This document shows positions 2,682 through 28,993 of a stretch of 37,951 nucleotides of DNA, piece by piece. Numbering within the stretch: the stretch's first letter is position 1; each line of letters begins with the position of its first letter. Below the pieces are notes generated by a model. The model was not told the DNA's origin. It made no database searches and saw only the letters and a list, made by a program, of their open reading frames with translations. Position numbers and translations under genes: made by a program. The DNA is from an uncultured Oscillochloris sp. (GTDB lineage Bacteria; Chloroflexota; Chloroflexia; Chloroflexales; Chloroflexaceae), in the NCBI GenBank assembly GCA_903920315.1, contig CAIXLU010000179.1, positions 1-37,951 on the forward strand, read 5' to 3'.

Positions 2682-2710
2682 TTGACAAAGCCGATCCTTT
2701 GGGTTACACT
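2682..2710 (+). promoter_or_regulatory. Sigma-70-type promoter for the membrane/MutL-like cluster
   Basis: TTGACA (2682-2687) is a perfect -35 hexamer. TACACT (2705-2710) is a 4-of-6 -10 match with a 17-base spacer. The expected start near 2717 gives a leader of about 60 bases before the DUF6754-like gene. It is the best-formed -35 in the window and marks the 5' end of a five-gene unit. Confidence 0.7.
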
Positions 2711-2777
2711 CGAAGGAGTAAAATCAGGGACGTTGTAAAGAATTGTCACGTTTGTCTCACCCCCGGAGAGCTTACTC

Positions 2778-3590
2778 ATGATCTCCGTGCCCCTGCCTCC
2801 GCCCCAAACACTCATTATCCTGCTGGTCACGCTGGTGGTTGTCTGTATGACATGGCTGCACCATGCGCGCATACTCGCTGGGCGGCTGCCCGTGCGGCGC
2901 TCACTGCCAGCCCTCGACGCCCTGCACAGTGCCCTCGCACATGGCGCAGAGACAGGCAAACTGCTGCACGTCTCGCCCGGTTCCGGTATGATCGGGGCGG
3001 GCAGCGGTACAGGCGGGACGACTGCTGAGACAGTGGCCGGGCTGATGGTGGCGAGCCGGGTTGCGGGGGAGGCTGCCTTAAATGGTGCCCCCATTCTCGT
3101 AAGTTCCGGTGATGTGATCACGCTACTGTCACTGCGCGGGGCAGTACGTCAGGCATATCAACAAGCCGGACAGACTCAGGACTACGATGGTGCCAAGGTG
3201 CATCTCCTCGCCCATCAGGATGCGCTCGCCTATGCCTCCGGTGTAACGACGCTGTATGGTCGTGAGCAGATCGGGGCGAGTGTGATGGTCGGTAGCTTCG
3301 GGCAGGAATTTCTGCTGATTGGCGAAGATGGGGCGCAGCGCGATTTGCCACAGGTGGTTGGATCAACAGGTAGCGCCGCGCTGCCACTGATGATGCTCAC
3401 CACGTCATCCACCCTGATCGGCGAGGAGGTCTTTGCCGCAGAGGCGTATCTCTCCACCGAACCCGTAGCGCAGTCACGGCTAATGACCCAAGATCTGCTG
3501 CGTACGGTGGTCATTATGCTAGTCATCGGTGGCTTCATCTATAGCCTGATCTCGCCCTCACTTGGGCTTCCGTCATTGGCTGGACTCTAG
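2778..3590 (+). CDS. DUF6754-like membrane protein
   Basis: A 270-residue protein with one transmembrane helix near the N-terminus (about residues 9-28), a long soluble middle and a second helix near the C-terminus (about 242-262). The middle contains a glycine-rich segment (GSGMIGAGSGTGGTTAET, about 68-85) and alternating beta/alpha stretches. This layout matches, from memory, the uncharacterised DUF6754 family found in Chloroflexota; no function is known. It is the first gene of a tight five-gene run, directly behind a strong promoter. The ATG at 2778 has GGAGAG nearby. The family name comes from pattern recall and should be confirmed by profile search. Confidence 0.75.
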   Translation: MISVPLPPPQTLIILLVTLVVVCMTWLHHARILAGRLPVRRSLPALDALHSALAHGAETGKLLHVSPGSGMIGAGSGTGGTTAETVAGLMVASRVAGEAALNGAPILVSSGDVITLLSLRGAVRQAYQQAGQTQDYDGAKVHLLAHQDALAYASGVTTLYGREQIGASVMVGSFGQEFLLIGEDGAQRDLPQVVGSTGSAALPLMMLTTSSTLIGEEVFAAEAYLSTEPVAQSRLMTQDLLRTVVIMLVIGGFIYSLISPSLGLPSLAGL

Positions 3591-3615
3591 CATTTGGAAG
3601 AGTAAGGGGCGTGGA

Positions 3616-4281
3616 ATGGCCTTCCTGCGCGATCTCAAACGTGCGTTTGCCATTCTGATTGCCGGAGTCTCCGGCCTCATTGTGCTACTCGACTTCGCCG
3701 GTAGCGGCGCGGTGGTGGCGATTGTTGCGCATACCCTGGTTCGATGGGCCGCCCTCATTACCGCGCTCGCGCTCCTGATAGGGTGCATGAGCGTTGTCGT
3801 CGCACACATACAGCGCATCCGCCACCGTAACCCCGACTGGGGCTATAGCCTCGTACTCTTGGCGGGCATGATTCTGGTGATTGTGTTCGGTATCTTCTTC
3901 CCCCTACCCGGCGCGACAGGGATCGTTCTGCCCAGCAGTCTGGCCGAGCAGCCCATTCACGCTCTTTTTAACGCAGTCTACATACCGCTATCGAGTAGTC
4001 TGCTGGCACTGCTGGCTTTCTTTAGCCTCAGCGCAGCGATTCGCGCCCTCGGTCGCCGTAGTGCAGATGCTACGGTTATCGTCATCGTCGCCGTTGTTGT
4101 GCTACTATCGCAACTGCCGACCATTTCTGCCCTGCCCGGCATCGGTGTCACAATCCAATGGGTAAACGACTATGTTGCCCTCGCTGGTGCCCGTGGACTG
4201 CTGATCGGTGCCGCTATCGGTGCGCTGGTTGCCAGTGTGCGTGTCCTACTTGGCTTCGATCTGCCGTATCTTGATCGCTGA
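3616..4281 (+). CDS. Polytopic membrane protein of unknown function
   Basis: A 221-residue protein with about six hydrophobic helices (around residues 10-30, 33-63, 73-95, 106-135, 145-165 and 185-208) and few conserved polar residues. No transporter or enzyme family is recognised. The ATG at 3616 is preferred over an earlier in-frame ATG at 3562 because AGTAAGGGG lies upstream and the earlier one overlaps the previous gene. It follows the DUF6754-like gene by 25 bases and is followed by the WL-repeat gene after 38 bases, so the three are likely one transcript. Its role is presumably as a membrane partner of that set. Confidence 0.8.
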   Translation: MAFLRDLKRAFAILIAGVSGLIVLLDFAGSGAVVAIVAHTLVRWAALITALALLIGCMSVVVAHIQRIRHRNPDWGYSLVLLAGMILVIVFGIFFPLPGATGIVLPSSLAEQPIHALFNAVYIPLSSSLLALLAFFSLSAAIRALGRRSADATVIVIVAVVVLLSQLPTISALPGIGVTIQWVNDYVALAGARGLLIGAAIGALVASVRVLLGFDLPYLDR

Positions 4282-4319
4282 TGCTAGGCCGCATAACGGG
4301 CCGGCTCTGACTTCACACC

Positions 4320-7300
4320 ATGGAACATCTGCCGCCCTGGCTTCGCAATCTGCCGCTTCCACCCCGCCCTGCCTCCGGCACAACACCGGATTGGCTGCAT
4401 GATGTGGTGCCGTCGGTATCCTCCGCTCAAACTACGCCTGAACCCGTTGATAATACGCCCGATTGGCTGCGCGAGCTACAGAGTGAGATTGGAGCTGCGC
4501 CCACAGGTGATACGAGCCTCCCAGGTGTGTCCCCACATAGGGACGATAATGATACGCCGGATTGGCTGCGCGATGTGGACACGTCTGAGCCAAACGCGAC
4601 GACCCGACCCGCGCCCTTCGGTGCGACCAATTGGCTGCATAGCCTCTCCTCTTCGTCTGACAGCACTGACGCCCCTGAACCTGAGCCTAAGCCAGAGCCA
4701 CCTTCTACCACAACCACCTCGCGGATTAGGATGCCGGTCGGCGCGACCGATTGGCTGCGCAGTATCGGCCAAGAGTCCGATCCCGCAGACCCCAAGCCGC
4801 CTCAGCCCTCGCTGTCTGAGATGATTGACGTGAAGAGCGGGGTTCCCGACTGGCTGCGCGATGTGAGTTCTGCTGAGATTGAGAGTATCTCTTCATCTGC
4901 GCCGGTTGCCGATGATCCACCACCGCCATCGCAGAAGGTATTTGATCCGCTCTCCTCAAACTGGCTGACGGATGAGCCTGCGGGTACGCAAGATGATAGG
5001 ACGGTTTTGGCCAATTGGGCCGACAATGCCTCTGCGCAGGCCGAGACGATAGCCGCTGATGGGGTTCCCGATTGGCTGCGTGATGTCACCCCGGTCTCAT
5101 TCAATGCGCCGACTGATCAGGGTCGTCTGCGCGACCCAGGCAGCGTGCCTGACTGGCTAAGTGGATCGGATAGTCCCGACTCATCTGCGACCGACTCGGA
5201 TGTTCCTGACTGGCTGCGTGATGTGTCTGGTGGAGATAACTCGCCCGATAATGCGGCACCCAGTTGGCTCAATGGCCCTGCTGCCACCTCGGAGCCTGCA
5301 ACCGATACGGAGGATGTGCCCGATTGGCTGCGGAGCGCGGAAGAAAGCTCGGCCCCCGCCGCCCCCGCCCCCGTCGAGGATGACGTCCCGGCGTGGCTGC
5401 GAGACGCGGAAGAAAGCTCGGCCCCCGCCGCCCCCGCCCCTGTCGAGGATGACGTCCCGGCGTGGCTGCGGGACGCGGAAGAAAGCTCGGCCCCCGTCCG
5501 TGCCCCCGCCCCCGTCGAGGATGACGTCCCAGCGTGGCTGCGGGGCGCGGAAGAAAGCTCGGCCCCCGCCGCCCCTGCCCCCGTAGAGGATGACATCCCG
5601 GCGTGGCTGCGAGACGCGGAAGAACACCCGACCCCCATCCCTGCTCCCGCCCCCGTAGAGGATGACGTCCCGGCATGGCTGCGAGATGCGGAAGAAAGCT
5701 CGGCCCCCGCCACCCCTGCCCCGGTCGAGGATGACATCCCGGCGTGGCTGCGAGACGCGGAAGAAAGCCCGGCCCCCGCCGCACCTGCCCCCGTCGAGGA
5801 TGACGTCCCGGCGTGGCTGCGAGACGCGGAAGAACGCCCGACCCCCGCCGCCCCTACCCCTGCCTCTGCCCCTGTCGAGGATGATATCCCGGCGTGGTTG
5901 CGAGACGCGGAAGAACGCCCGGCCCCCGCCGCGCCTGCGCCTGCGCCTGCGCCTGCTGCACCCATTCCTACGCCCACTCCTGCGCCCGCTGATGTACCGG
6001 ACTGGCTGCGCGAGGCTGCTGGGCCACCGGATAACGGTGGATCCACGGCCATCGCCCCGCAAGATCTGCCGCCTTGGCTCTCAACAACCTCGTCCGAGCC
6101 AACGACCACATCAGGCTCACCGTCCGCTGGAGACATGAGCCTGCCATCTTGGCTGCGCGGCGTTGCCGATGAGCCACCTCCAGCCCGTACACCTGCCTAC
6201 ACTTCGCAGACGGAAGATGTGACAACCCAGCCCCAGCGCCGGGTGTCGGCACATGAGGACGCTGAGGGCGATGACTTCTTTAAGGGAGCTGATCTTCCCG
6301 GTTGGCTGCGACCACCAGAGGTGGAGCAGCCTACGGGAAGCCCCGAGGGCCAAGCTCTCGATTGGCTCACCCGCTTGGGCGCAGCCGATGAAGGTGACAG
6401 CGAAGTGAGCATGAGCAACGCTCCTCCCCTCGCTACATCGGCGACTCCCGCACGCCGACTCTACCAGCGTAGCCCTGAACAGATGGGCGCGGTAGCCTTG
6501 CTCGGACAGCTCGTGCGTGCGCCCTACCCCGCACCTGTCATCGCACCTGCCCCGGTGCCTTTGTCACGCTGGCAGCAAGTCGGCCTTGACCGAGTACTCT
6601 ACATCCTGTTCGCCATCGTCCTCGTGGCGGGCATGCTGAATCCGCAGATCATCGTGCCGCTCCAGACCGCTACACCCACGGCACCGGGCGTCACCGATCT
6701 CAGTCAACGCCTCGCCCGCCTTGGCCCCGATGATATTGTAATGATCGCCTATGAGTGGGATGCCCAACGAACCGCCGAGCTGCGCCCGCTAGAACAGGCG
6801 GTGACGAGCCAGGTTATGAAGAACAAGACCAAGCTGATCGTGCTTAGCACGGATCTTCAGGGTACTTTGCTCTCGTTTGACCTGCGGGCGCAGTTGCGGG
6901 CTACTGGCTATAACATCGATCCTGACGGCAGAGTGTTTGGCGGGCGCGACTACGTGTTCCTTGGTTATCGCCCCGGTGGCGAACTGGCCCTGCGTCTCCT
7001 GGCGCAAAATCTGCGCGCTGAACTTCGGTCGGACTTTGAGGGCCGCGATGCAACCCAAGGTCTGTTGGCAACGAATTTGGACGGCTCGCCGCGTGTGAGT
7101 CAGATCTCCGATCTCTCGATGATCATCGTGTTGGCAGACCAGCCTCAGGATGCGCAGATCTGGATGGAGCAGGTACATAGCGCCGCACCCTCGGTGCCGA
7201 TCACCTTCCTGATACCACGGGAGTCTGAGCCGATGCTGCAGCCATACCTACGCCTGCCAAATGTGTATCATCTTGCAGGCTTGCAGGGTGCCCTGGCCCT

Positions 7301-7454
7301 GAATGCGCTTACCACAGGTGCCGATAGCGCCGATATTGCCCGCGCCACCGGCCAGCAGTCGCTGGCGGTGCTGACCTTTGTGATCCTGCTGATCGGCGGT
7401 GGCCTCGGCCTAGCCCTGGCGCACGCCCGTAAATCCCGGCGAGGTGCCGCGTGA
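4320..7454 (+). CDS. Giant WL-motif repeat protein with membrane-anchored C-terminal domain
   Basis: A 1044-residue protein in two parts. Residues 1 to about 690 are acidic, Pro/Ser/Ala-rich and probably disordered; they carry about 26 copies of a short motif of the form P-D/A-W-L-R-D/E. From about residue 340 to 530 the motif sits in eight near-identical units of about 23 residues. A transmembrane helix follows at about 758-775, then a 235-residue folded domain with alternating beta/alpha pattern, a second helix at about 1016-1036 and a short basic tail. With no signal peptide, the repeat region should be cytoplasmic and the folded domain outside (inference). Regularly spaced Trp-Leu motifs in a disordered tail suggest multivalent docking of a partner. 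The next gene overlaps its stop by 4 bases. The ribosome-binding site is weak. Function unknown. Confidence 0.85.
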   Translation: MEHLPPWLRNLPLPPRPASGTTPDWLHDVVPSVSSAQTTPEPVDNTPDWLRELQSEIGAAPTGDTSLPGVSPHRDDNDTPDWLRDVDTSEPNATTRPAPFGATNWLHSLSSSSDSTDAPEPEPKPEPPSTTTTSRIRMPVGATDWLRSIGQESDPADPKPPQPSLSEMIDVKSGVPDWLRDVSSAEIESISSSAPVADDPPPPSQKVFDPLSSNWLTDEPAGTQDDRTVLANWADNASAQAETIAADGVPDWLRDVTPVSFNAPTDQGRLRDPGSVPDWLSGSDSPDSSATDSDVPDWLRDVSGGDNSPDNAAPSWLNGPAATSEPATDTEDVPDWLRSAEESSAPAAPAPVEDDVPAWLRDAEESSAPAAPAPVEDDVPAWLRDAEESSAPVRAPAPVEDDVPAWLRGAEESSAPAAPAPVEDDIPAWLRDAEEHPTPIPAPAPVEDDVPAWLRDAEESSAPATPAPVEDDIPAWLRDAEESPAPAAPAPVEDDVPAWLRDAEERPTPAAPTPASAPVEDDIPAWLRDAEERPAPAAPAPAPAPAAPIPTPTPAPADVPDWLREAAGPPDNGGSTAIAPQDLPPWLSTTSSEPTTTSGSPSAGDMSLPSWLRGVADEPPPARTPAYTSQTEDVTTQPQRRVSAHEDAEGDDFFKGADLPGWLRPPEVEQPTGSPEGQALDWLTRLGAADEGDSEVSMSNAPPLATSATPARRLYQRSPEQMGAVALLGQLVRAPYPAPVIAPAPVPLSRWQQVGLDRVLYILFAIVLVAGMLNPQIIVPLQTATPTAPGVTDLSQRLARLGPDDIVMIAYEWDAQRTAELRPLEQAVTSQVMKNKTKLIVLSTDLQGTLLSFDLRAQLRATGYNIDPDGRVFGGRDYVFLGYRPGGELALRLLAQNLRAELRSDFEGRDATQGLLATNLDGSPRVSQISDLSMIIVLADQPQDAQIWMEQVHSAAPSVPITFLIPRESEPMLQPYLRLPNVYHLAGLQGALALNALTTGADSADIARATGQQSLAVLTFVILLIGGGLGLALAHARKSRRGAA
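5340..5915 (+). repeat. Coding minisatellite, about 69-bp units
   Basis: Eight tandem units within the WL-repeat gene each encode roughly 23 residues: an Ala/Pro run, VEDD, V/I-PAWLRDAEE and a short Ser/Pro tail. Third-position changes are few and some units differ by one or two Ala-Pro pairs. Recent in-frame expansion is likely. Confidence 0.9.
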
Positions 7455-8110
7455 CCAGCACTATGCTGAGCCTAGCCACCGGACTGGTGGGCGTGGTGCT
7501 GACGCTCATGGTCTTCAGCCGCCTGCTGGGCGACAACCCGGCCTTCCGTGTCGTACAGTACCTTTTTATCGGTATCTCGCTTGGCTATGCCTTTGTGGTG
7601 ATCTACCATCAGGTGCTACGCCCGAACGCCATGAGTGCTGTCGCAGCGATAGGCGATCCGATCAGTCTTGGCACGCAGGTACTACCCTTCCTGCTAGGTA
7701 CTCTCCTGCTCGCCCGCATCTCTGGGCGTCAGCAGATCTCGTGGCTGGCCAACCTGCCGCTTGCCCTGATCTTTGGCGTGGGATCCGCCCTCGCCCTTGG
7801 CGGTGTCCTGGTAGGTACTCTGATGCCCCAGCTACGGGACTCAACCAGACCGATTGGCAGCGACCCTATCCAAGCAGTCGGCTCCGTACTGCTCTCGCTT
7901 GGCGTGGTGGCGACGCTCTGTTACTTCTACTTCACGGTACCCCGCAAAACGCCGGCGGGGCGGGTGGTCGCCTTTGGCGCACGAATCGGACGCTGGCTGC
8001 TCATGATCGCCTTCGGGTTCTTCCTGGCTGGCGGTCTACTCACCTACATCACGGCCCTAAACGAGCGCCTTGCGTTTATTGTTGGCTGGGTTCGCAGCCT
8101 CTTGGGATGA
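7451..8110 (+). CDS. Polytopic membrane protein of unknown function
   Basis: A 219-residue protein with about six hydrophobic helices (around 5-25, 36-57, 70-90, 97-122, 140-162 and 176-200) and a short basic segment between the last two. It starts with GTG at 7451; the GTGA overlap with the stop of the preceding gene points to translational coupling, and GGCGAGG lies just upstream. No family is recognised. Its place between the WL-repeat protein and the MutL-like protein suggests a fixed stoichiometric partner in the same membrane assembly. Confidence 0.85.
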   Translation: MTSTMLSLATGLVGVVLTLMVFSRLLGDNPAFRVVQYLFIGISLGYAFVVIYHQVLRPNAMSAVAAIGDPISLGTQVLPFLLGTLLLARISGRQQISWLANLPLALIFGVGSALALGGVLVGTLMPQLRDSTRPIGSDPIQAVGSVLLSLGVVATLCYFYFTVPRKTPAGRVVAFGARIGRWLLMIAFGFFLAGGLLTYITALNERLAFIVGWVRSLLG

Positions 8111-8156
8111 CATCGGCAGTTATCAACAAGCGGAGATCTGAGGGGATAGAGCTGAT

Positions 8157-10328
8157 ATGTTAGGTTCGGTACTTGTCGCCGAGATCGGCAGCCTGATTAC
8201 CAGGGTTACACTGGTGGATCAAGTAGACGGTGAGAGCCGTATGATCGGCCATGCCGAGACGAGCAGCAGCATCGAACCGCCCTATCAGAACGCGCTCTAT
8301 GCGGTGCTGGAGGCTGCGGCGCAGATCGCAGAACTGACGGGTCGGCAACTGATTCGTGACGGCCAGTTGATTATGCCGCAGGACGGTGACCGCGATGGAG
8401 TCAACGAGTTGGTGGTGGTGACGAGTGCCGCTGGCGCAATGACTCTGGTGATCACGGCGATCTCCGCCGATGTATCGGCCCGCAGTGCGCTGCGGGCCAG
8501 CCGCGCTACCTACACCGCCCTCCTCCAGTTGGTAACTCTCGATGATGCGGTGGGCCAGCCACTGGTGAGCGCCGGGGATCTTTCGTGGATTGAGCGCCAG
8601 GTACAGTCGCTCATGAGCCTGCGCCCTGATGCGATGCTGATCGCCGGTGGGCTTGAGCATGGTGCCGTGGATGCGGTCAACCGGCTCGCCCATATTGTCG
8701 GCCTCACGGTGGTGAGTACGATGGTGGACAGCAGCGGGCAGCAGCGCCAAGATAGTGCGTCCCGACCGGTGATCTACGCAGGCAACAGCGATGCCCGTGA
8801 GCGGGTTGTTGCGGCAATCTCTGACCGGGCCGAAGTTTTTGTGGTAGAGAATCTGCGTCCCGCCCTCGACCAAGAGTACTTGGAACCAACGCGCATGGAG
8901 CTGTCGCGGCTGTACGAGAAGCAGATTATGTCGCGCCTGCCGGGGATCGCAGGGTTGCGCCGCACGAGCCGCACGCCGATTCGTACAGTCTGCGATGCCT
9001 CGGGCCTCGTGGCACGCTTTGTGGCTGAACGCTCGGGTCGGCGGGTGCTACTGGTGGATAGCGGCGCGAGCAGTAGTTCAGCCTTCTACGCGGCACCCGG
9101 TCGCTACCATCCAGCCGTCCTGGGCGTCTGCGGGGTAGCCTACGGGATCTCGTCAATCCTGGCTGAACGCGGCGTGGCCGCTGTGGCCCGCTGGTTACCC
9201 TTCCCGATCAGCACATCCGACCTTACCCATCGCCTGCTGAATAAGATGCTTCGCCCGCATATGCTCCCGGCAAGCCCGGAGGATCTCGCTATTGATCTGG
9301 CCCTCGCCCGTGAGTCACTCTCGATGGCGGTCGTTGCTCTGCGCGATGAACAGCCTCTGAACGATTACGATTGGCTGATCGCGTGCGGTGGATCGCTTTC
9401 TCACGTGCCACACCCTGGCATGGCCCTGCTGGCTCTGCTCGATGCACTGCAGCCCGGTGCCGATCAAGGCCAGCCGATTCTCGATATTCATCTAGACAAC
9501 CTCGGCCTTGTGCCGAGCATTGGTGCCCTCGCCTCGCTCGATGCTGATGCTGCGGTGACGATCTTTGATCGCGATCTGCTCGGCAATATGCCGCTGGCCA
9601 CCTGTGTCATGCTGAGTGGCGAGGGGCGTCACGGCGAGGTTGCCCTTGAGCTGGATCTGAGCGTGGTCGGTGGAAAAACCCAGCGATATACTGTGCGTCA
9701 CGGTGAACTGTTGCGCGTGCCACTTACTCTAGGACGCTACGCGCAGTTGATTTTGCATCCCGCCGCAGGTGTGCGAATAGGTCGCGCTGCCCCCGGTGAG
9801 GAGGTAGCATCCGACCCGGCGGCAATTGGCGGCAGCGCCCTTGGCGTGGTGATTGATGCACGTGGCCGACCGCTCCAACTCCCCACCAATGATCAGCAAC
9901 GCTGCCTGAAGATATGGGAGTGGCTGGTTGCCCTCGGCGCGGAGCGCGGGCCAAGCCCGTATGTCGAGTCCCATTCAGCGATGAGTATGCCCGCTCTTGC
10001 GCCCGTTGAGGTACCTGCGCCCACGTCTAAACCGAAGCCCGCCCCGAAGCCCGCGCCCGCCCCGAAGCCCGCGCCCGCTCCAAAGCCCGCGCCCGCTCCA
10101 AAGCCCGCGCCCGCCCCGAAGCCTGAGGTAATTGCCCCCGATGCCCCCAAGGCCACTCCCGGCAAGCGGATCTCGCTCAGCGACCTCGCAGAAAAAGATA
10201 AACGAAAGCCTACCGCGACACCGCCGCCCTCCGCTTCCCCATCCAGTAGCCTCGATGGCGATCTGGACTCACTGCGGCAGACGGTGGAGACACCCAAGCC
10301 TCGCGGACTCTTCGGGCGAAAAAAATAG
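8157..10328 (+). CDS. MutL (glutamate mutase L)-like actin-fold protein
   Basis: A 723-residue soluble protein resembling the MutL/GlmL family of actin-like ATPases, which in clostridia is encoded with glutamate mutase. An N-terminal phosphate-1-like segment (AEIGSLITRVTLVD, 8-21) and a second phosphate-like loop (LLVDSGASSSSAF, about 297-309) are visible. The first loop has Glu where Asp is usual. A Pro/Ala/Lys-rich linker made of KPAPAP repeats (about 620-655) precedes a basic tail, a layout not expected for a stand-alone mutase helper. No glutamate mutase or B12 gene is nearby, so a role in that pathway is unlikely here; it more plausibly powers or organises the membrane cluster it ends. 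Start ATG at 8157, with GGGGAT about 10 bases upstream. Confidence 0.75.
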   Translation: MLGSVLVAEIGSLITRVTLVDQVDGESRMIGHAETSSSIEPPYQNALYAVLEAAAQIAELTGRQLIRDGQLIMPQDGDRDGVNELVVVTSAAGAMTLVITAISADVSARSALRASRATYTALLQLVTLDDAVGQPLVSAGDLSWIERQVQSLMSLRPDAMLIAGGLEHGAVDAVNRLAHIVGLTVVSTMVDSSGQQRQDSASRPVIYAGNSDARERVVAAISDRAEVFVVENLRPALDQEYLEPTRMELSRLYEKQIMSRLPGIAGLRRTSRTPIRTVCDASGLVARFVAERSGRRVLLVDSGASSSSAFYAAPGRYHPAVLGVCGVAYGISSILAERGVAAVARWLPFPISTSDLTHRLLNKMLRPHMLPASPEDLAIDLALARESLSMAVVALRDEQPLNDYDWLIACGGSLSHVPHPGMALLALLDALQPGADQGQPILDIHLDNLGLVPSIGALASLDADAAVTIFDRDLLGNMPLATCVMLSGEGRHGEVALELDLSVVGGKTQRYTVRHGELLRVPLTLGRYAQLILHPAAGVRIGRAAPGEEVASDPAAIGGSALGVVIDARGRPLQLPTNDQQRCLKIWEWLVALGAERGPSPYVESHSAMSMPALAPVEVPAPTSKPKPAPKPAPAPKPAPAPKPAPAPKPAPAPKPEVIAPDAPKATPGKRISLSDLAEKDKRKPTATPPPSASPSSSLDGDLDSLRQTVETPKPRGLFGRKK

Positions 10329-10397
10329 ACAACGAAAAGGCACGAATAAACGAATGGAGCAACTGCTCCATTCGTTTATTCGTGCCTTTTCGTTGTC
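10328..10397. terminator. Perfect 34-bp inverted repeat between convergent genes
   Basis: The arms 10328-10361 and 10364-10397 are exact reverse complements with a 2-base spacer. The structure begins on the last base of the MutL-like stop codon and reaches into the cyclophilin stop codon (10396-10398). It should act as a bidirectional terminator; T runs (CCTTTTCG) occur inside each arm. The stem is much longer than most intrinsic terminators. Confidence 0.8.
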
Positions 10398-14456: not shown

Positions 14457-14667
14457 AGGGCTGATGCAAAGTCCTCAGATTGCCCGTGCCATAGACATGG
14501 TGTCAGGTGTCGGGTGTCAGATTTACAGTTCGTAGTGCGGGCTTCCAGCCTGCCGACGCACATCTGGCAGGCTGGAAGCCCGCACTACAAACACCGCACA
14601 CTGTAAATCCGATCTGAACCTTGTCATAGGCGTAAACGGGTCGGGTGTGTGACGTTGCATCAGCCCT
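14457..14667. repeat. Dispersed hairpin repeat, copy 1 (MITE-like)
   Basis: This element fills most of the 430-base gap between rph and selB. Outer inverted arms of 17 bases (14457-14473 and 14651-14667) match at 16 positions. Inside are CCATAGACATGG (14489-14500), three GTGTCAG-type heptamers (14500-14520), 10-base arms GATTTACAGT/ACTGTAAATC, and a perfect 23-base inverted repeat (14532-14554 and 14566-14588) with an 11-base loop. No coding capacity. A related copy is at 18111-18259. The rest of the gap (14378-14456, 14668-14807) shows no gene. Confidence 0.8.
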
Positions 14668-14807
14668 GGCGTGACACGCATAACAGGATAACTTTTGCCC
14701 TCTATTGCAAACACGGAACCATTATAGTTGCGCATGGTACAACGAGTGGTACCATGGGTGCTCTACCCTCATGTTTCTGGTTGCTCATCACTTGGTGCGT
14801 ACACCTC

Positions 14808-16655
14808 ATGTATGTTATCGGCACCGCCGGCCACGTCGATCATGGTAAGTCTACACTCGTGAAGGCGCTGACGGGGATTAACCCCGACCGCCTGGCGGAG
14901 GAGCAGCGTCGCGAGATGACGATTGATCTCGGCTTTGCATGGATGAGCCTGCCGAGCGGGCGCAGTGTGAGCCTGGTGGATGTGCCGGGACACGAGCGCT
15001 TTATCAAAAATATGCTCGCGGGTGTTGGCGGGATTGACGCTGCGCTCCTGGTGATCGCTGCCGATGAGACGATGATGCCGCAGACCATCGAGCATCTGGC
15101 GATTCTCGATCTGCTCGGCATTACTCACGGTGTGGTGGTACTTACCAAGGCCGATCTCGTAGATGCCGACTGGCTAGCTTTGGTGCGCGAGGAGGTGGGT
15201 GTGCGGCTGGCGGGTACGAGTCTCTCCAGCGCACCCATCGTCGCGGTCTCGGCTCGTCGTGGCCAGGGTCTTGATGATCTGCGTGTCGCCCTCGATGCTA
15301 TGCTTGACGCAACCCCGGCGCGCACAGGTAATACGGGTATCCCGCGACTACCGATTGACCGTGCCTTCACTATCGGCGGATTTGGCACGGTGGTGACAGG
15401 CACCCTGATTGATGGCCCCCTGGCGGTGGGTCAGGAAGTTGAGATTCAGCCGACTGGGCTGCGCGGGCGTGTCCGGGGCATCCAGACACACACGCAGCGC
15501 AGTGAGATCGCGCTCCCTGGCACACGGGTGGCGGTGAATCTGGCAGGAATCCCCCACAGCCAGATGAGCCGGGGCGATGTGTTGAGTCTGCCCGATGCCC
15601 ATACGCCCACAACGATGCTTGATCTGCGTTTGCGGGTGCTGGCCGATGCCCCACACATGATTGAGCAGAACGATGGACTGGATCTGTTTGTCGGCGCGGC
15701 GGAGGTACCCTGCCGAGTGACGCTGCTGGATGCCGAGACATTGGCTCCTGGGGCGATAGGCTGGGTACAACTGCGCCTCGATCGCCCGATCCTGGTCGCT
15801 CGGGGTGACCGCTGTATCCTGCGGGTGGCCTCACCTAGCCTGACGGTAGCGGGTGGCACGGTGATTGATCCGCATCCGCTACGCCATCGCCGCTTCCGCA
15901 GCGAGGTGCTGTCCGCCCTGGAAATCCTGGCCCGTGGAACCCCAGATGAACTGCTGCTCCAGGCGCTCGGTGACGGGCCGCCGCGTACGTGGGCAGAGTT
16001 ACGGCACGAGGTAGGTCTCTCCGAGATGGTGGCCGAGGCTACCCTCGCTGATCTGCTCTCCCGTCGTCGGGTTCTGGCGCTTGGCAAACAGATCATCACT
16101 CCTGTTGGCTGGAACAAACTGGTGGAGCGTATGCTGCCGCCGCTGCGGGCCTACCACCGGCGCTATCCGCTGCGCGAAGGTATGCCGCGTGAGGAGCTAC
16201 GTCAGCGCTTGCGCCTGAGTCCATACGCCTTTGCCGCATTCCTCGATGCTGCCGCCCACCACGGAATGATGGGCCAGAGCGAGACGTATGCGTGGCTAGC
16301 GGGACATCTGGCCCAGCCCGACGCTGCTGCTCGCCGCGATCTGGATATGGCCCTGGCCGCGATGTCTCGCGTCCCCTACAGTCCGCCCACACCGGATCTC
16401 GATAGTGAACTGCTAGCCTGGGCATGTGATCGCCGCCTGCTCGTGCGGGTCGCCACCGATGTCTACTTCCTATCCGAAACCTACGATGAATTGCTGGCCT
16501 GGGTGCGCGCCACCATCCTTGCCGAGGGCGGACTAAGCGTTGGATACCTGCGCGATCATTTTGGCAGCACGCGCAAGTACGCCCTGGCCTTTCTTGAACA
16601 CCTTGATCAGCGCACGATCACTCGCCGTGTCGGCGAGAAACGGGTGTTGCATTGA
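14808..16655 (+). CDS. selB: Selenocysteine-specific elongation factor SelB
   Basis: A 615-residue translational GTPase that delivers Sec-tRNA to UGA codons marked by a SECIS element. The G domain shows GHVDHGKST (8-16), MTIDLGFA switch region (37-44), DVPGH (58-62) and TKAD (about 112-115). EF-Tu-like beta-barrel domains follow, including FTIGGFGTVVTGTL. The C-terminal third has the chain of winged helices typical of SelB, ending in LSVGYLRDHFGSTRKYALAFLEHLD and a basic end, which bind SECIS RNA. The ATG at 14808 starts the conserved MYVIGTAGHVDHG; in-frame ATGs at 14649 and 14754 would add non-conserved sequence. The ribosome-binding site is weak. No other selenium gene is in the window. 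Confidence 0.93.
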   Translation: MYVIGTAGHVDHGKSTLVKALTGINPDRLAEEQRREMTIDLGFAWMSLPSGRSVSLVDVPGHERFIKNMLAGVGGIDAALLVIAADETMMPQTIEHLAILDLLGITHGVVVLTKADLVDADWLALVREEVGVRLAGTSLSSAPIVAVSARRGQGLDDLRVALDAMLDATPARTGNTGIPRLPIDRAFTIGGFGTVVTGTLIDGPLAVGQEVEIQPTGLRGRVRGIQTHTQRSEIALPGTRVAVNLAGIPHSQMSRGDVLSLPDAHTPTTMLDLRLRVLADAPHMIEQNDGLDLFVGAAEVPCRVTLLDAETLAPGAIGWVQLRLDRPILVARGDRCILRVASPSLTVAGGTVIDPHPLRHRRFRSEVLSALEILARGTPDELLLQALGDGPPRTWAELRHEVGLSEMVAEATLADLLSRRRVLALGKQIITPVGWNKLVERMLPPLRAYHRRYPLREGMPREELRQRLRLSPYAFAAFLDAAAHHGMMGQSETYAWLAGHLAQPDAAARRDLDMALAAMSRVPYSPPTPDLDSELLAWACDRRLLVRVATDVYFLSETYDELLAWVRATILAEGGLSVGYLRDHFGSTRKYALAFLEHLDQRTITRRVGEKRVLH

Positions 16656-24997: not shown

Positions 24998-25018
24998 CTG
25001 TGTCCTGGGAGAGCTATG

Positions 25019-26455
25019 ATGCGTCGTCTTGGTTGTCTTACACCCTTTGGCATGGTCGCTGGTGCTATTGCGATTGTTGGGGTGATCGTTGCCGCGCTGC
25101 TGAGCGGTGGCTCGATGTTCAGCCCTGGCTCACTCAACGCTCAGGCGCATGCGGGCGTTACCCTTGGCGGGGTGAAATCCCACGCCGCTATCGGTGGGAA
25201 TTGCGCTGCATGTCACACATCCCCCTGGGAATCCCGCACCATGGCCGCGAATTGCCTCAGTTGCCACACCGATATTCAGGCTGAACTCAAGGACACCAAG
25301 ACGCTCCACGGCGCACTGTCTGATGGCGCATCCTGCCTGAGTTGCCATACCGAGCATAAGGGCGCAACCGCCAATCTTACGAAGACAGATCTAGCCAGCA
25401 ACTTCCCTCATGAGTTGCTCGGTTTCTCGCTGGCGGCCCACAAACGTACATCCGCTGGCGTTGTCTTCGCCTGTGCCGATTGTCATACCGCCCTGCGTCA
25501 ATCCCCTCGTCCGTCAAATGTTTACGCCCTCGACTCGGCGGGTTGCATCGGCTGCCATGTGGATTATCAGGCCGCCTTTATGACCACGCACCGCGCCGAT
25601 TTCGGCGATGATTGTTTGTCGTGCCACGACGGTGTGGATCGCTATAGCAACTTTAACCACGCCAAGGTGGGCTTTACGCTCGAAGGCAAGCACATTGAGG
25701 TAGGTTGCAAGCTCTGCCATACGTCTGCCCGCACCCAGGCCGATTTCAAGATTGCCGACAGCACATGCGTGGCCTGTCACCAAAAGGACGACGTACACAA
25801 GGGTTCCTTCGGCCCTGATTGTGTGGCCTGCCACACGCCCAGCGGCTGGGATCAAGTTACGTTCGACCATAACAAGACGGCCTTCCCGCTCACGGGTGCC
25901 CATATTAAGACGGCATGTGTGGACTGTCACAGCAACCACGTCTATAAAGGCACACCCACCACATGCGTGGACTGCCACGCTGAGCCGCAGGAACACCTGG
26001 GCCAGTACGGCACCGACTGCGCCGCCTGCCATACGACCAACGACTGGAAAGAGGTTACGGCATTCGACCATAGCAAGACCGCCTTCCCGCTCACGGGTGC
26101 TCACATCAAGACAACATGTGTGAAGTGTCACGCTAACAACGTCTATAAGGGTACGCCCACCACATGCGTGGGCTGTCACGCCGACCCGCAGGTTCACCTT
26201 GGTCAGTTTGGCACCGACTGCGCCGCCTGTCACGTGACGAGTAGCTGGAAGAATGTCATCTTCAAACACACCTTCCCGCTCAACCACGGAGGCAAAGGAC
26301 AGATTCCATGCGTAACATGCCACACGAATGTGGGGTCGCAACAGTTTAAGACCTACACCTGCTACAAGTGCCACTCCCAGAGCGGTGTAGCCGCAGAGCA
26401 TCGCGGGATGGGCGACTACAGCAATTGTATGCGTTGCCACGCCGATGGTCGGTAA
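25019..26455 (+). CDS. 18-haem c-type cytochrome
   Basis: A 478-residue secreted or anchored protein (479 from the ATG one codon earlier; the second ATG is preferred for spacing to GGAGAG and because the paralogue begins MRRLGC). An N-terminal hydrophobic segment (about 11-33) serves as signal or anchor. After it come 18 CXXCH haem-attachment motifs, with many extra His that could be distal ligands. Haems 7-15 form three repeats of a three-haem module of 67-70 residues, with conserved VYKGTPT, GTDC and FDHSKTAFPLTGAH. It ends with a three-haem cap shared with its paralogue. It would be matured outside the cytoplasm and act as an electron conduit. It follows the cytochrome b-like gene by 112 bases. 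Confidence 0.95.
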   Translation: MRRLGCLTPFGMVAGAIAIVGVIVAALLSGGSMFSPGSLNAQAHAGVTLGGVKSHAAIGGNCAACHTSPWESRTMAANCLSCHTDIQAELKDTKTLHGALSDGASCLSCHTEHKGATANLTKTDLASNFPHELLGFSLAAHKRTSAGVVFACADCHTALRQSPRPSNVYALDSAGCIGCHVDYQAAFMTTHRADFGDDCLSCHDGVDRYSNFNHAKVGFTLEGKHIEVGCKLCHTSARTQADFKIADSTCVACHQKDDVHKGSFGPDCVACHTPSGWDQVTFDHNKTAFPLTGAHIKTACVDCHSNHVYKGTPTTCVDCHAEPQEHLGQYGTDCAACHTTNDWKEVTAFDHSKTAFPLTGAHIKTTCVKCHANNVYKGTPTTCVGCHADPQVHLGQFGTDCAACHVTSSWKNVIFKHTFPLNHGGKGQIPCVTCHTNVGSQQFKTYTCYKCHSQSGVAAEHRGMGDYSNCMRCHADGR

Positions 26456-26545: not shown

Positions 26546-28993
26546 ATGCGTCGTCTTGGCTGCCTTACACCCTTCGGCATGGTCGCAGGTCTTATCGCCG
26601 TCGTCATCACTGCCGTTATCGCCCTACTGAGCGGCGGTGCGATGTTTAGCCCTGGCCCCCTCAGTGCTCAGACGCATGTTGGCATCACCCTTGGCGGGGT
26701 GACATCCCACGCCGCCCTCAGCACCAACTGCGGCGCGTGCCATAACGCCCCCTGGGATAAGCGCACGATGGCAGAGAGTTGTCTCGCTTGTCACACCGAA
26801 ATTCAGGCTGATATTGCCAATCCCAGCACGCTCCACGGCGTGCTGACCAATGGCACCGCATGTCTGACCTGTCACACCGAGCATGCGGGTGCAACCGCCA
26901 ATCTCACCAAGGGCGATCTAACCAACTTCCCCCACGAGAAGATCGGTTTTTCGCTGGCGACCCACAAGCGGATGAGTGATGGAAGCACATTCACCTGCGC
27001 CGATTGCCACACGGCCCTCAGCAAATCTCCTCGCCCGTCGAACGCCTACGTCCTTGGCTCGGCAGATTGTGTGAGTTGCCACGTGGACTACCAGGCTGCC
27101 TTTATGACCACGCACCGCGCCGATTTTGGCGATGACTGTTTGTCATGCCACGACGGTGTGGATCGCTATAGCGATTTCAACCACGCCACCCTGAGCTTTG
27201 CACTCGAAGGTAAACATGCGGATGTGGGCTGTCGGCTCTGCCATACCGCTGCCCGTACCCAGGCCGATTTCAAGATCGCCGATAGCACATGTGTCGCTTG
27301 TCACCAGAAGGATGATGTGCATAAAGGTGCCCTTGGCAGCGACTGTGCCAGTTGCCACACACCCGCTGACTGGAAGAAGGCCACGTTCGATCATAACAAG
27401 ACGAATTTCGCCCTCACCGGTACCCACGCCACGGTGGTCTGTGCCAAGTGCCACAGCGACCACGTCTATAAGGGAACGCCGACCACGTGCGTGGGTTGTC
27501 ACGCCGATCCGCAGGTTCACCTCGGCCAGTTTGGTACCGACTGCGCCAGTTGCCACGTCACCAGCGACTGGAAGGATCTGTCGCTATTCGACCATAGCAA
27601 GACGAACTTTGCCCTCACCGGCGATCACATCAAGGTGGTCTGCGCCGACTGCCACGCCAACCACGTCTACAAGGGCACGCCCACCTCGTGCGTGGCCTGC
27701 CACGCCGAGCCGAAGAAACACCTCGGCCAGTTTGGCACCGACTGTGCCAGTTGCCACGTCACCAGCGACTGGAAGCAGGTCTCTGCCTTCGACCATAGCA
27801 AGACCGCCTTCCCGCTCACCGGTGCCCACGCCAAAGTGGTCTGTGCCAGTTGCCACGGCAATAACATCTACAAAGGTACGCCCACCTCGTGTATCGCCTG
27901 TCATCAGAAGGATGATGTACATAAAGGTGCCCTTGGTACCAACTGTGCAGGCTGCCACTCCACCAGCGCGTGGAAGCAGATCACCTTTAACCACAGCAAG
28001 ACCGCCTTCCCGCTCACGGGTGCCCACGCCAAGGCGGTCTGCGCGAGCTGCCACGCCAACCACGTCTATAAGGGCACGCCCACCAGTTGTGTCGCCTGTC
28101 ACCAGAAAGACGACAAACACCAGGGCAGCTTCGGCACCAACTGCGCCAGTTGCCACGTCACCAGCGACTGGAAACAGATCACCTTTAACCATAGCAAAAC
28201 CGCCTTCCCGCTCGCCGGTGTCCATGCGACGACGGTCTGCGCCAGTTGCCATGTCAACAACGTCTACAAGGGCACGCCCACCTCGTGTATCGCCTGCCAC
28301 CAGAAAGATGACAAGCATCAGGGGGCCTTCGGCACCGACTGTGCCAGTTGCCACACGGCTAGCGGCTGGGGCCAGGTCGTATTCGACCATAACAAGACCG
28401 CCTTCCCGCTCGTCGGTGGCCACACCAAGACGGTCTGCACCAATTGCCACGCTAACAACATCTACAAGGGCACACCCACCGCGTGTGTTGCGTGCCACCA
28501 GAAAGATGACAAGCATCAGGGAGCCTTCGGCACCGACTGCGCCAGTTGCCACACACCTAGCGGCTGGGGCCAAGTGACATCGTTCGACCACAGCAAGACG
28601 GCGTTCCCACTCACCGGTGCCCACACCAAGACGGTCTGTAGCAAGTGCCACGCCAACAACGTCTACAAGGGCACACCCACCGCATGCGTCGCGTGTCATG
28701 CCGAGCCGCAGGAACATCTTGGCCAGTTTGGCACCGCCTGCGCTAGTTGCCACACAACGAGTAGCTGGAAGGGTGCGACCTTCAAACACACCTTCCCGCT
28801 CAACCACGGAGGCAAAGGCCAGATCCCGTGCGCCACATGTCACACGAACCCGCCGCCACAGCAGTACCAGACCTACACCTGCTACGGATGCCACGCCGAG
28901 GCCCGAATGATCTCGAAGCACCGTGAGGAGGGAATTGGCGACATTAGCAACTGTGTACGCTGCCACTCCGGTGGTCGGAATCACGACGACTGA
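26546..28993 (+). CDS. 33-haem c-type cytochrome
   Basis: An 815-residue paralogue of the upstream 18-haem cytochrome. The same N-terminal anchor (MRRLGCLTPFGMVAG, hydrophobic to about 33) leads into 33 CXXCH motifs. The first six haems and the last three align with the shorter protein; between them are eight copies of the three-haem module (haems 7-30) in place of three, which accounts exactly for the 15 extra haems. The modules share CxxCHxNxVYKGTPT, the HLGQFGTDCASCH or HQGxFGTDCASCH type, and DHSKTAFPLTGAH. ATG at 26546 with GAGAGAGGG upstream. The predicted product is a long haem chain for moving electrons in the periplasm or outside the cell. No other domain is seen. Confidence 0.95.
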   Translation: MRRLGCLTPFGMVAGLIAVVITAVIALLSGGAMFSPGPLSAQTHVGITLGGVTSHAALSTNCGACHNAPWDKRTMAESCLACHTEIQADIANPSTLHGVLTNGTACLTCHTEHAGATANLTKGDLTNFPHEKIGFSLATHKRMSDGSTFTCADCHTALSKSPRPSNAYVLGSADCVSCHVDYQAAFMTTHRADFGDDCLSCHDGVDRYSDFNHATLSFALEGKHADVGCRLCHTAARTQADFKIADSTCVACHQKDDVHKGALGSDCASCHTPADWKKATFDHNKTNFALTGTHATVVCAKCHSDHVYKGTPTTCVGCHADPQVHLGQFGTDCASCHVTSDWKDLSLFDHSKTNFALTGDHIKVVCADCHANHVYKGTPTSCVACHAEPKKHLGQFGTDCASCHVTSDWKQVSAFDHSKTAFPLTGAHAKVVCASCHGNNIYKGTPTSCIACHQKDDVHKGALGTNCAGCHSTSAWKQITFNHSKTAFPLTGAHAKAVCASCHANHVYKGTPTSCVACHQKDDKHQGSFGTNCASCHVTSDWKQITFNHSKTAFPLAGVHATTVCASCHVNNVYKGTPTSCIACHQKDDKHQGAFGTDCASCHTASGWGQVVFDHNKTAFPLVGGHTKTVCTNCHANNIYKGTPTACVACHQKDDKHQGAFGTDCASCHTPSGWGQVTSFDHSKTAFPLTGAHTKTVCSKCHANNVYKGTPTACVACHAEPQEHLGQFGTACASCHTTSSWKGATFKHTFPLNHGGKGQIPCATCHTNPPPQQYQTYTCYGCHAEARMISKHREEGIGDISNCVRCHSGGRNHDD
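27230..28753 (+). repeat. Eight three-haem modules within the 33-haem gene
   Basis: Eight direct repeats of about 190-210 bases each encode three CXXCH motifs. Stretches such as the VYKGTPT codons are nearly identical between copies. The 18-haem gene has three such modules at 25706-26233. Confidence 0.9.

Follow-up and report, generated by a model that had tools for sequence, protein, structure and literature searches.

A candidate seven-protein membrane machine with a MutL-family actin-fold ATPase, encoded in Chloroflexota and several other phyla

What does an actin-fold protein of the MutL family do at the end of an operon of membrane protein genes? The question is raised by a 37,951-nucleotide contig (CAIXLU010000179.1) of an uncultured Oscillochloris sp., called the window in the following, on whose plus strand a DUF6754 gene is followed by genes for a six-transmembrane (6-TM) protein (TMA), for a large protein carrying many Trp-Leu motifs (the WL protein), for a second multi-TM protein (TMB) and for MutL. 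The original prediction described these five genes as a promoter-led unit encoding a membrane assembly, in which a disordered arm with about 26 docking motifs recruits a partner, and all five were found where it had placed them. We consider it possible, at a probability of roughly 0.4, that the operon encodes an ATP-switched membrane complex, in which MutL would act on a module of four membrane proteins, while the arm would gather MutL or a partner. Extended to several phyla, among them anammox Planctomycetota and phototrophic Chloroflexota, the same tentative reading is that of a previously undescribed seven-protein membrane machine whose actin-fold ATPase, with a role unrelated to glutamate mutase, would drive or gate a four-protein membrane complex, with the LPxWLR-bearing arm of Chloroflexota recruiting the ATPase.

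That these genes belong together is apparent from their order. Of 301 Chloroflexota genomes sampled, DUF6754 is present in 67 and MutL in 122, both above cut-off. Both genes share a contig in 53 genomes, in every case on the same strand and 2.8-7.3 kb apart. The arrangement is conserved across the phylum and beyond it, and the refuting condition of a gene order confined to the present genome fails. The remaining DUF6754 genomes carry MutL on a different contig (12 genomes) or lack it (2 genomes); it is probably the repetitive arm that breaks these contigs in short-read assemblies. The common Chloroflexota order is a small helical protein (SHP), DUF6754, TMA (6-TM), the two-TM protein with its WL arm, TMB (6-TM) and MutL, and many families show the five large genes in that same order. 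The two-TM core of the WL protein occurs in 48 of 201 genomes, almost always together with DUF6754. Two small genomes are without MutL, without TMB and without a barrel-sandwich protein that we count as the seventh component; one of them is also without DUF6754, and the other lies outside the DUF6754 sample.

A scan of GTDB genomes for GLxIDARGRP, a C-terminal motif common to the MutL proteins of this system, gave 573 matches, of which 555 are MutL relatives. The best 80 of these 555, whose loci we examined, include Armatimonadota, Planctomycetota (Scalindua, Brocadiaceae), Eisenbacteria, Zipacnadia, Poribacteria and Cloacimonadota, as named in the sequence records, where some names of metagenome-assembled genomes (MAGs) may be wrong. 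In Planctomycetota, including anammox bacteria, in Armatimonadota and in others the order is a small gene, MutL, the barrel-sandwich protein, DUF6754, a 6-TM protein, the two-TM protein and a second 6-TM protein, and 14 of the examined loci have all seven genes in this order. Where the MutL locus of such a genome lacks the membrane genes, TMB is encoded elsewhere in seven of eight cases, and TMB away from the MutL locus lay in the same four-gene block in every genome inspected. Since the four-gene block thus occurs apart from MutL, the system consists of two parts. One is the membrane module, a fixed set of four genes for DUF6754, the two-TM protein and both 6-TM proteins; the other, which accompanies it, is the soluble module of MutL, SHP and the barrel-sandwich protein. 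The genome of the window has the full complement, with DUF6754, TMA, the two-TM protein and TMB in the fixed order and with genes for MutL, the barrel-sandwich protein and SHP. Module numbers vary. One Eisenbacteria genome has five separate four-gene membrane modules, a cloacimonadotal locus (L239, 1980-11154) has two in tandem, directly 3' of genes that by eye resemble ExbB, ExbD and TonB, and another locus (L169, L170) holds two pairs of MutL and barrel-sandwich genes together with two small helical genes. It may be that a few soluble modules suffice for several membrane modules.

The operon of the window is larger than the proposed unit of five, comprising six genes, the first of which had been missed. 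It encodes the 77-residue SHP (2446-2679), which was recognised by a profile built from small proteins directly preceding MutL in other phyla (match at 2470-2595, E = 7.6e-6 in a whole-genome search). The profile matches in 33 of 61 relatives. In this genome, as in most Chloroflexota loci, SHP lies directly 5' of DUF6754, and in other phyla its family adjoins MutL or DUF6754. A sigma-70-type promoter, TTGACA-17-TACACT (2682-2710), begins three bases past the SHP stop codon. It has 10 of 12 consensus bases, and matches of this quality are no more frequent than expected by chance (2 found, 2.2 expected), but it lies in an intergenic block conserved in three species, with the hexamers unchanged and much of the flank identical in the two related ones. 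As the SHP gene lies 5' of it, the operon probably starts further upstream. The operon is followed by a bidirectional terminator with a perfect 20-bp stem (10339-10386), 3' of MutL and shared with a convergent peptidyl-prolyl isomerase gene.

The seventh component was likewise absent from the proposed unit, since it is encoded elsewhere. In 56 of 61 Chloroflexales a single copy of its gene lies at a locus separate from the operon, and in the genome of the window it is found on another contig (C33, 18053-19165), near genes that by eye are response-regulator-like and an ATP synthase operon. The protein has weak matches to RnfC_N, NQRA_N, KOW and Biotin_lipoyl. While this likens it to the barrel-sandwich domains of RnfC and NqrA, the matches stay under curated cut-offs where these are given, and no other Rnf or Nqr subunit was recognised in the loci.

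Within the membrane module, the DUF6754 protein (2778-3590) has a TM helix at each end and a Rossmann-like alpha/beta domain between them; it scores 129.5 bits against PF20539 (gathering cut-off 27, E = 1.6e-37) and thus belongs to a family that has no recorded function and is named in no paper that we found in the open literature. TMA (3616-4281) is a 6-TM protein that matches no known family. The WL protein (4320-7454; 1,044 residues) combines a disordered-looking N-terminal arm (4320-6479) with a conserved two-TM core (6480-7451) that makes up the entire protein in other phyla (homologues of 270-280 residues) and is anchored, as had been foreseen, by two helices, near residues 761 and 1015, which enclose a Rossmann-like domain with a WxEQ motif. 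TMB (7451-8110) has five or six TM helices, and its gene overlaps that of the WL protein by GTGA (7451-7454), a junction already noted in the original prediction. AlphaFold2 (AF2) models of the two-TM core and of DUF6754 reached predicted local distance difference test (pLDDT) scores of 86 and 91, with Rossmann-like alpha/beta domains between the TM helices in both. Among solved structures these models found only Rossmann-like matches, with none standing out: the best Foldseek matches are RCK-type or dehydrogenase-like, with Z up to about 10, and many unrelated structures are tied, so that no function can be read from the fold. Profile comparison gave no homology between DUF6754 and the two-TM protein, nor between TMA and TMB. 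The positive-inside rule suggests that the WL arm and the alpha/beta domain of DUF6754 face the cytoplasm, and that the domain of the two-TM protein faces outward. In another locus (L188, 6921-8501), a DUF6754 protein carries a Cu_amine_oxidN1 domain ahead of its TM region, which suggests that its N-terminus is outside the cell.

MutL (8157-10328) is a member of PF13941 (193.8 bits, gathering cut-off 27, E = 6.2e-57), with residues 5-474 covering profile positions 1-450. It shares this Pfam family with the GlmL/MutL accessories of glutamate and ornithine mutases (TIGR01319, NF040745, NF040744); against the NCBIfam GlmL models it scores only 32.7, 39 and 67 bits, with cut-offs of 204 (TIGR01319), 475 and 600. 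Past the Pfam model, MutL has an extra C-terminal domain with the motif VVIDARGRPLQLP (about 9850-9888), followed by the predicted Pro/Ala/Lys tail, which is encoded by 18-bp repeats (10037-10123) and ends in PRGLFGRKK. In a tree, it separates from five proteins of the GlmL type (about 460-480 residues) and from one long relative, all of which lack the DARGRP motif. Glutamate mutase E (PF06368) has no match in the genome of the window and is above cut-off in only 4 of 201 Chloroflexota genomes. As judged by sequence, MutL of this system is therefore not a glutamate-mutase accessory, which agrees with the earlier suggestion that it has another job and disposes of a general tie to B12-dependent mutases. 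Annotation of such genes as 'glutamate mutase L' is probably mistaken. In the open literature we found nothing that links MutL, actin-like proteins and glutamate mutase; GlmL turned up there in connection with mesaconase.

The WL arm carries the 26 motifs that had been estimated, with the consensus [DE][LVI]P[DA]WL[RQ][ED], compared to a mean of 1.65 and a maximum of 7 in 2,000 shuffles, and 26 of its 27 Trp residues are followed by Leu. One part (5325-5932) is a recent 69-bp tandem duplication array, and the remainder of the motif array is no such recent duplication. In other lineages the number per protein ranges from about 69, in what we take to be Chloroflexus, down to 0-4. The arm is absent in other phyla and in some Chloroflexota (lineage f16), where the two-TM protein has only about 270-300 residues; it is a Chloroflexota addition to the two-TM protein. 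Two observations connect its motif to MutL: where Chloroflexota families lack DUF6754 and TMB, the gene directly before MutL encodes a soluble zinc-ribbon protein with LPxWLR, and the MutL tails of Herpetosiphonaceae themselves bear PDWL or PEWL motifs. These recurrences link arm and MutL genetically, and the arm is probably a multi-site docking strip. The proposed role as a docking scaffold is plausible, given the reappearance of the motif next to MutL on unrelated zinc-ribbon proteins, but it does not hold in general, and the arm is not what the system is built around. A second WL-repeat protein in the same genome was not found: exact PDWL sites number 57, against 51 for a reversed control pattern, 9 of the 57 fall in the WL gene, and one other close PDWL pair proved to lie in two unrelated proteins.

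How might these parts work together? In the reading of an ATP-switched complex, the soluble module would dock at the cytoplasmic face of the membrane module, and ATP binding and release by MutL would change the state of the latter, by analogy to PilM on the type IV pilus platform or to reactivases on their enzymes. The many LPxWLR motifs of the Chloroflexota arm would make it a multivalent strip that most likely serves MutL or a partner under its control, with the result that many copies could be gathered at one complex. Several points weigh against this reading. The phosphate-1 Asp is replaced by Glu in MutL of Chloroflexaceae, which makes its ATPase activity uncertain; MutL also occurs in Chloroflexota genomes without TMB, where its role must be independent of the membrane module; the arm is missing where the rest of the system persists and is thus not needed for its basic function; and hydropathy and charge, under the positive-inside rule, are all that topology was assigned from. 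Alternatively, the arm may bind another cytoplasmic client or itself, acting as a generic recruitment motif and a scaffold for clustering or condensates, of which MutL would be a fellow member at the membrane. This fits the absence of the arm in phyla with an intact MutL, the variation from 0 to about 69 motifs and the tandem expansion within the arm, yet it hardly explains, without a link to MutL, why LPxWLR sits on zinc-ribbon proteins directly beside MutL in genomes without TMB, and we consider it somewhat unlikely.

The family name of MutL and the matches of the barrel-sandwich fold to Biotin_lipoyl and RnfC_N are also compatible with MutL serving a cofactor-bearing enzyme as chaperone or reactivase, the role proposed for GlmL, with the barrel-sandwich protein as a lipoyl- or biotinyl-like client and the membrane module anchoring it or handling a cofactor. 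Glycine-cleavage and lipoate ligase genes do adjoin the system in Eisenbacteria, Cloacimonadota and two further MAGs, but they were not seen in loci of Chloroflexota or Planctomycetota, and with the rarity of glutamate mutase E and the lack of the extra C-terminal domain in GlmL-type proteins this makes such a role distinctly unlikely. Pilus assembly suggests a third comparison. In PilN-PilM, a linear motif of a membrane protein is paired with an actin-fold protein, which resembles the arrangement found here, and the MutL profile matches no PDB entry other than PilM, albeit weakly and locally (profile positions 256-329, E = 0.015). A pilus- or secretion-like platform of the PilM/PilN/PilO type, with the actin-fold protein as a structural coupler and possibly tied to gliding or filament formation, nevertheless seems very doubtful to us: the system also occurs in anammox and Armatimonadota genomes, it has two 6-TM proteins, DUF6754 and a two-TM Rossmann-like domain where no PilN- or PilO-like genes were recognised, and neither pilin, secretin, PilB nor PilC, nor any other motor ATPase, appeared among the neighbour families considered (the first 25 of 83 in one comparison, and part of the Chloroflexota neighbours). 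A distant kinship to PilM-type platforms may still exist. Finally, an anti-phage defence system was considered and rejected, as neither the five large proteins nor the barrel-sandwich protein matched a PADLOC model, and SHP gave only partial matches (E = 0.004-0.01).

Neighbouring genes vary by lineage, and none is common widely enough to name a function. Five loci are flanked by glycine-cleavage genes (gcvT, gcvH, gcvP), two of them also by lipoate ligase, and five loci of anammox-type genomes have a SpoIVB-like S55 peptidase gene upstream. Elsewhere in the window, an open reading frame (14649-16655, plus strand) reads by eye like the selenocysteine elongation factor SelB; no tRNA-Sec, nor any other tRNA or RNA element, was found in the window. 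Two adjacent paralogues (25016-26455 and 26546-28993, plus strand), preceded by a membrane protein gene, contain many CxxCH haem-binding motifs in tandem modules and look like an electron-transfer cluster with a recent internal duplication.

Nothing in the libraries searched is of the same kind as the whole set, and no function is recorded for it there; its ATPase is itself a member of the broad MutL family. When seven genes stay together as a fixed set in several phyla, four of them for membrane proteins and one for a dedicated ATPase, they usually serve an important function of the cell, and the Chloroflexota arm is an uncommon example from nature of a single short motif present in up to about 69 copies on one membrane protein. 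The system is kept in genomes that we take to be those of cultured relatives of Chloroflexus, Roseiflexus and Herpetosiphon, and its presence in such organisms makes it testable.

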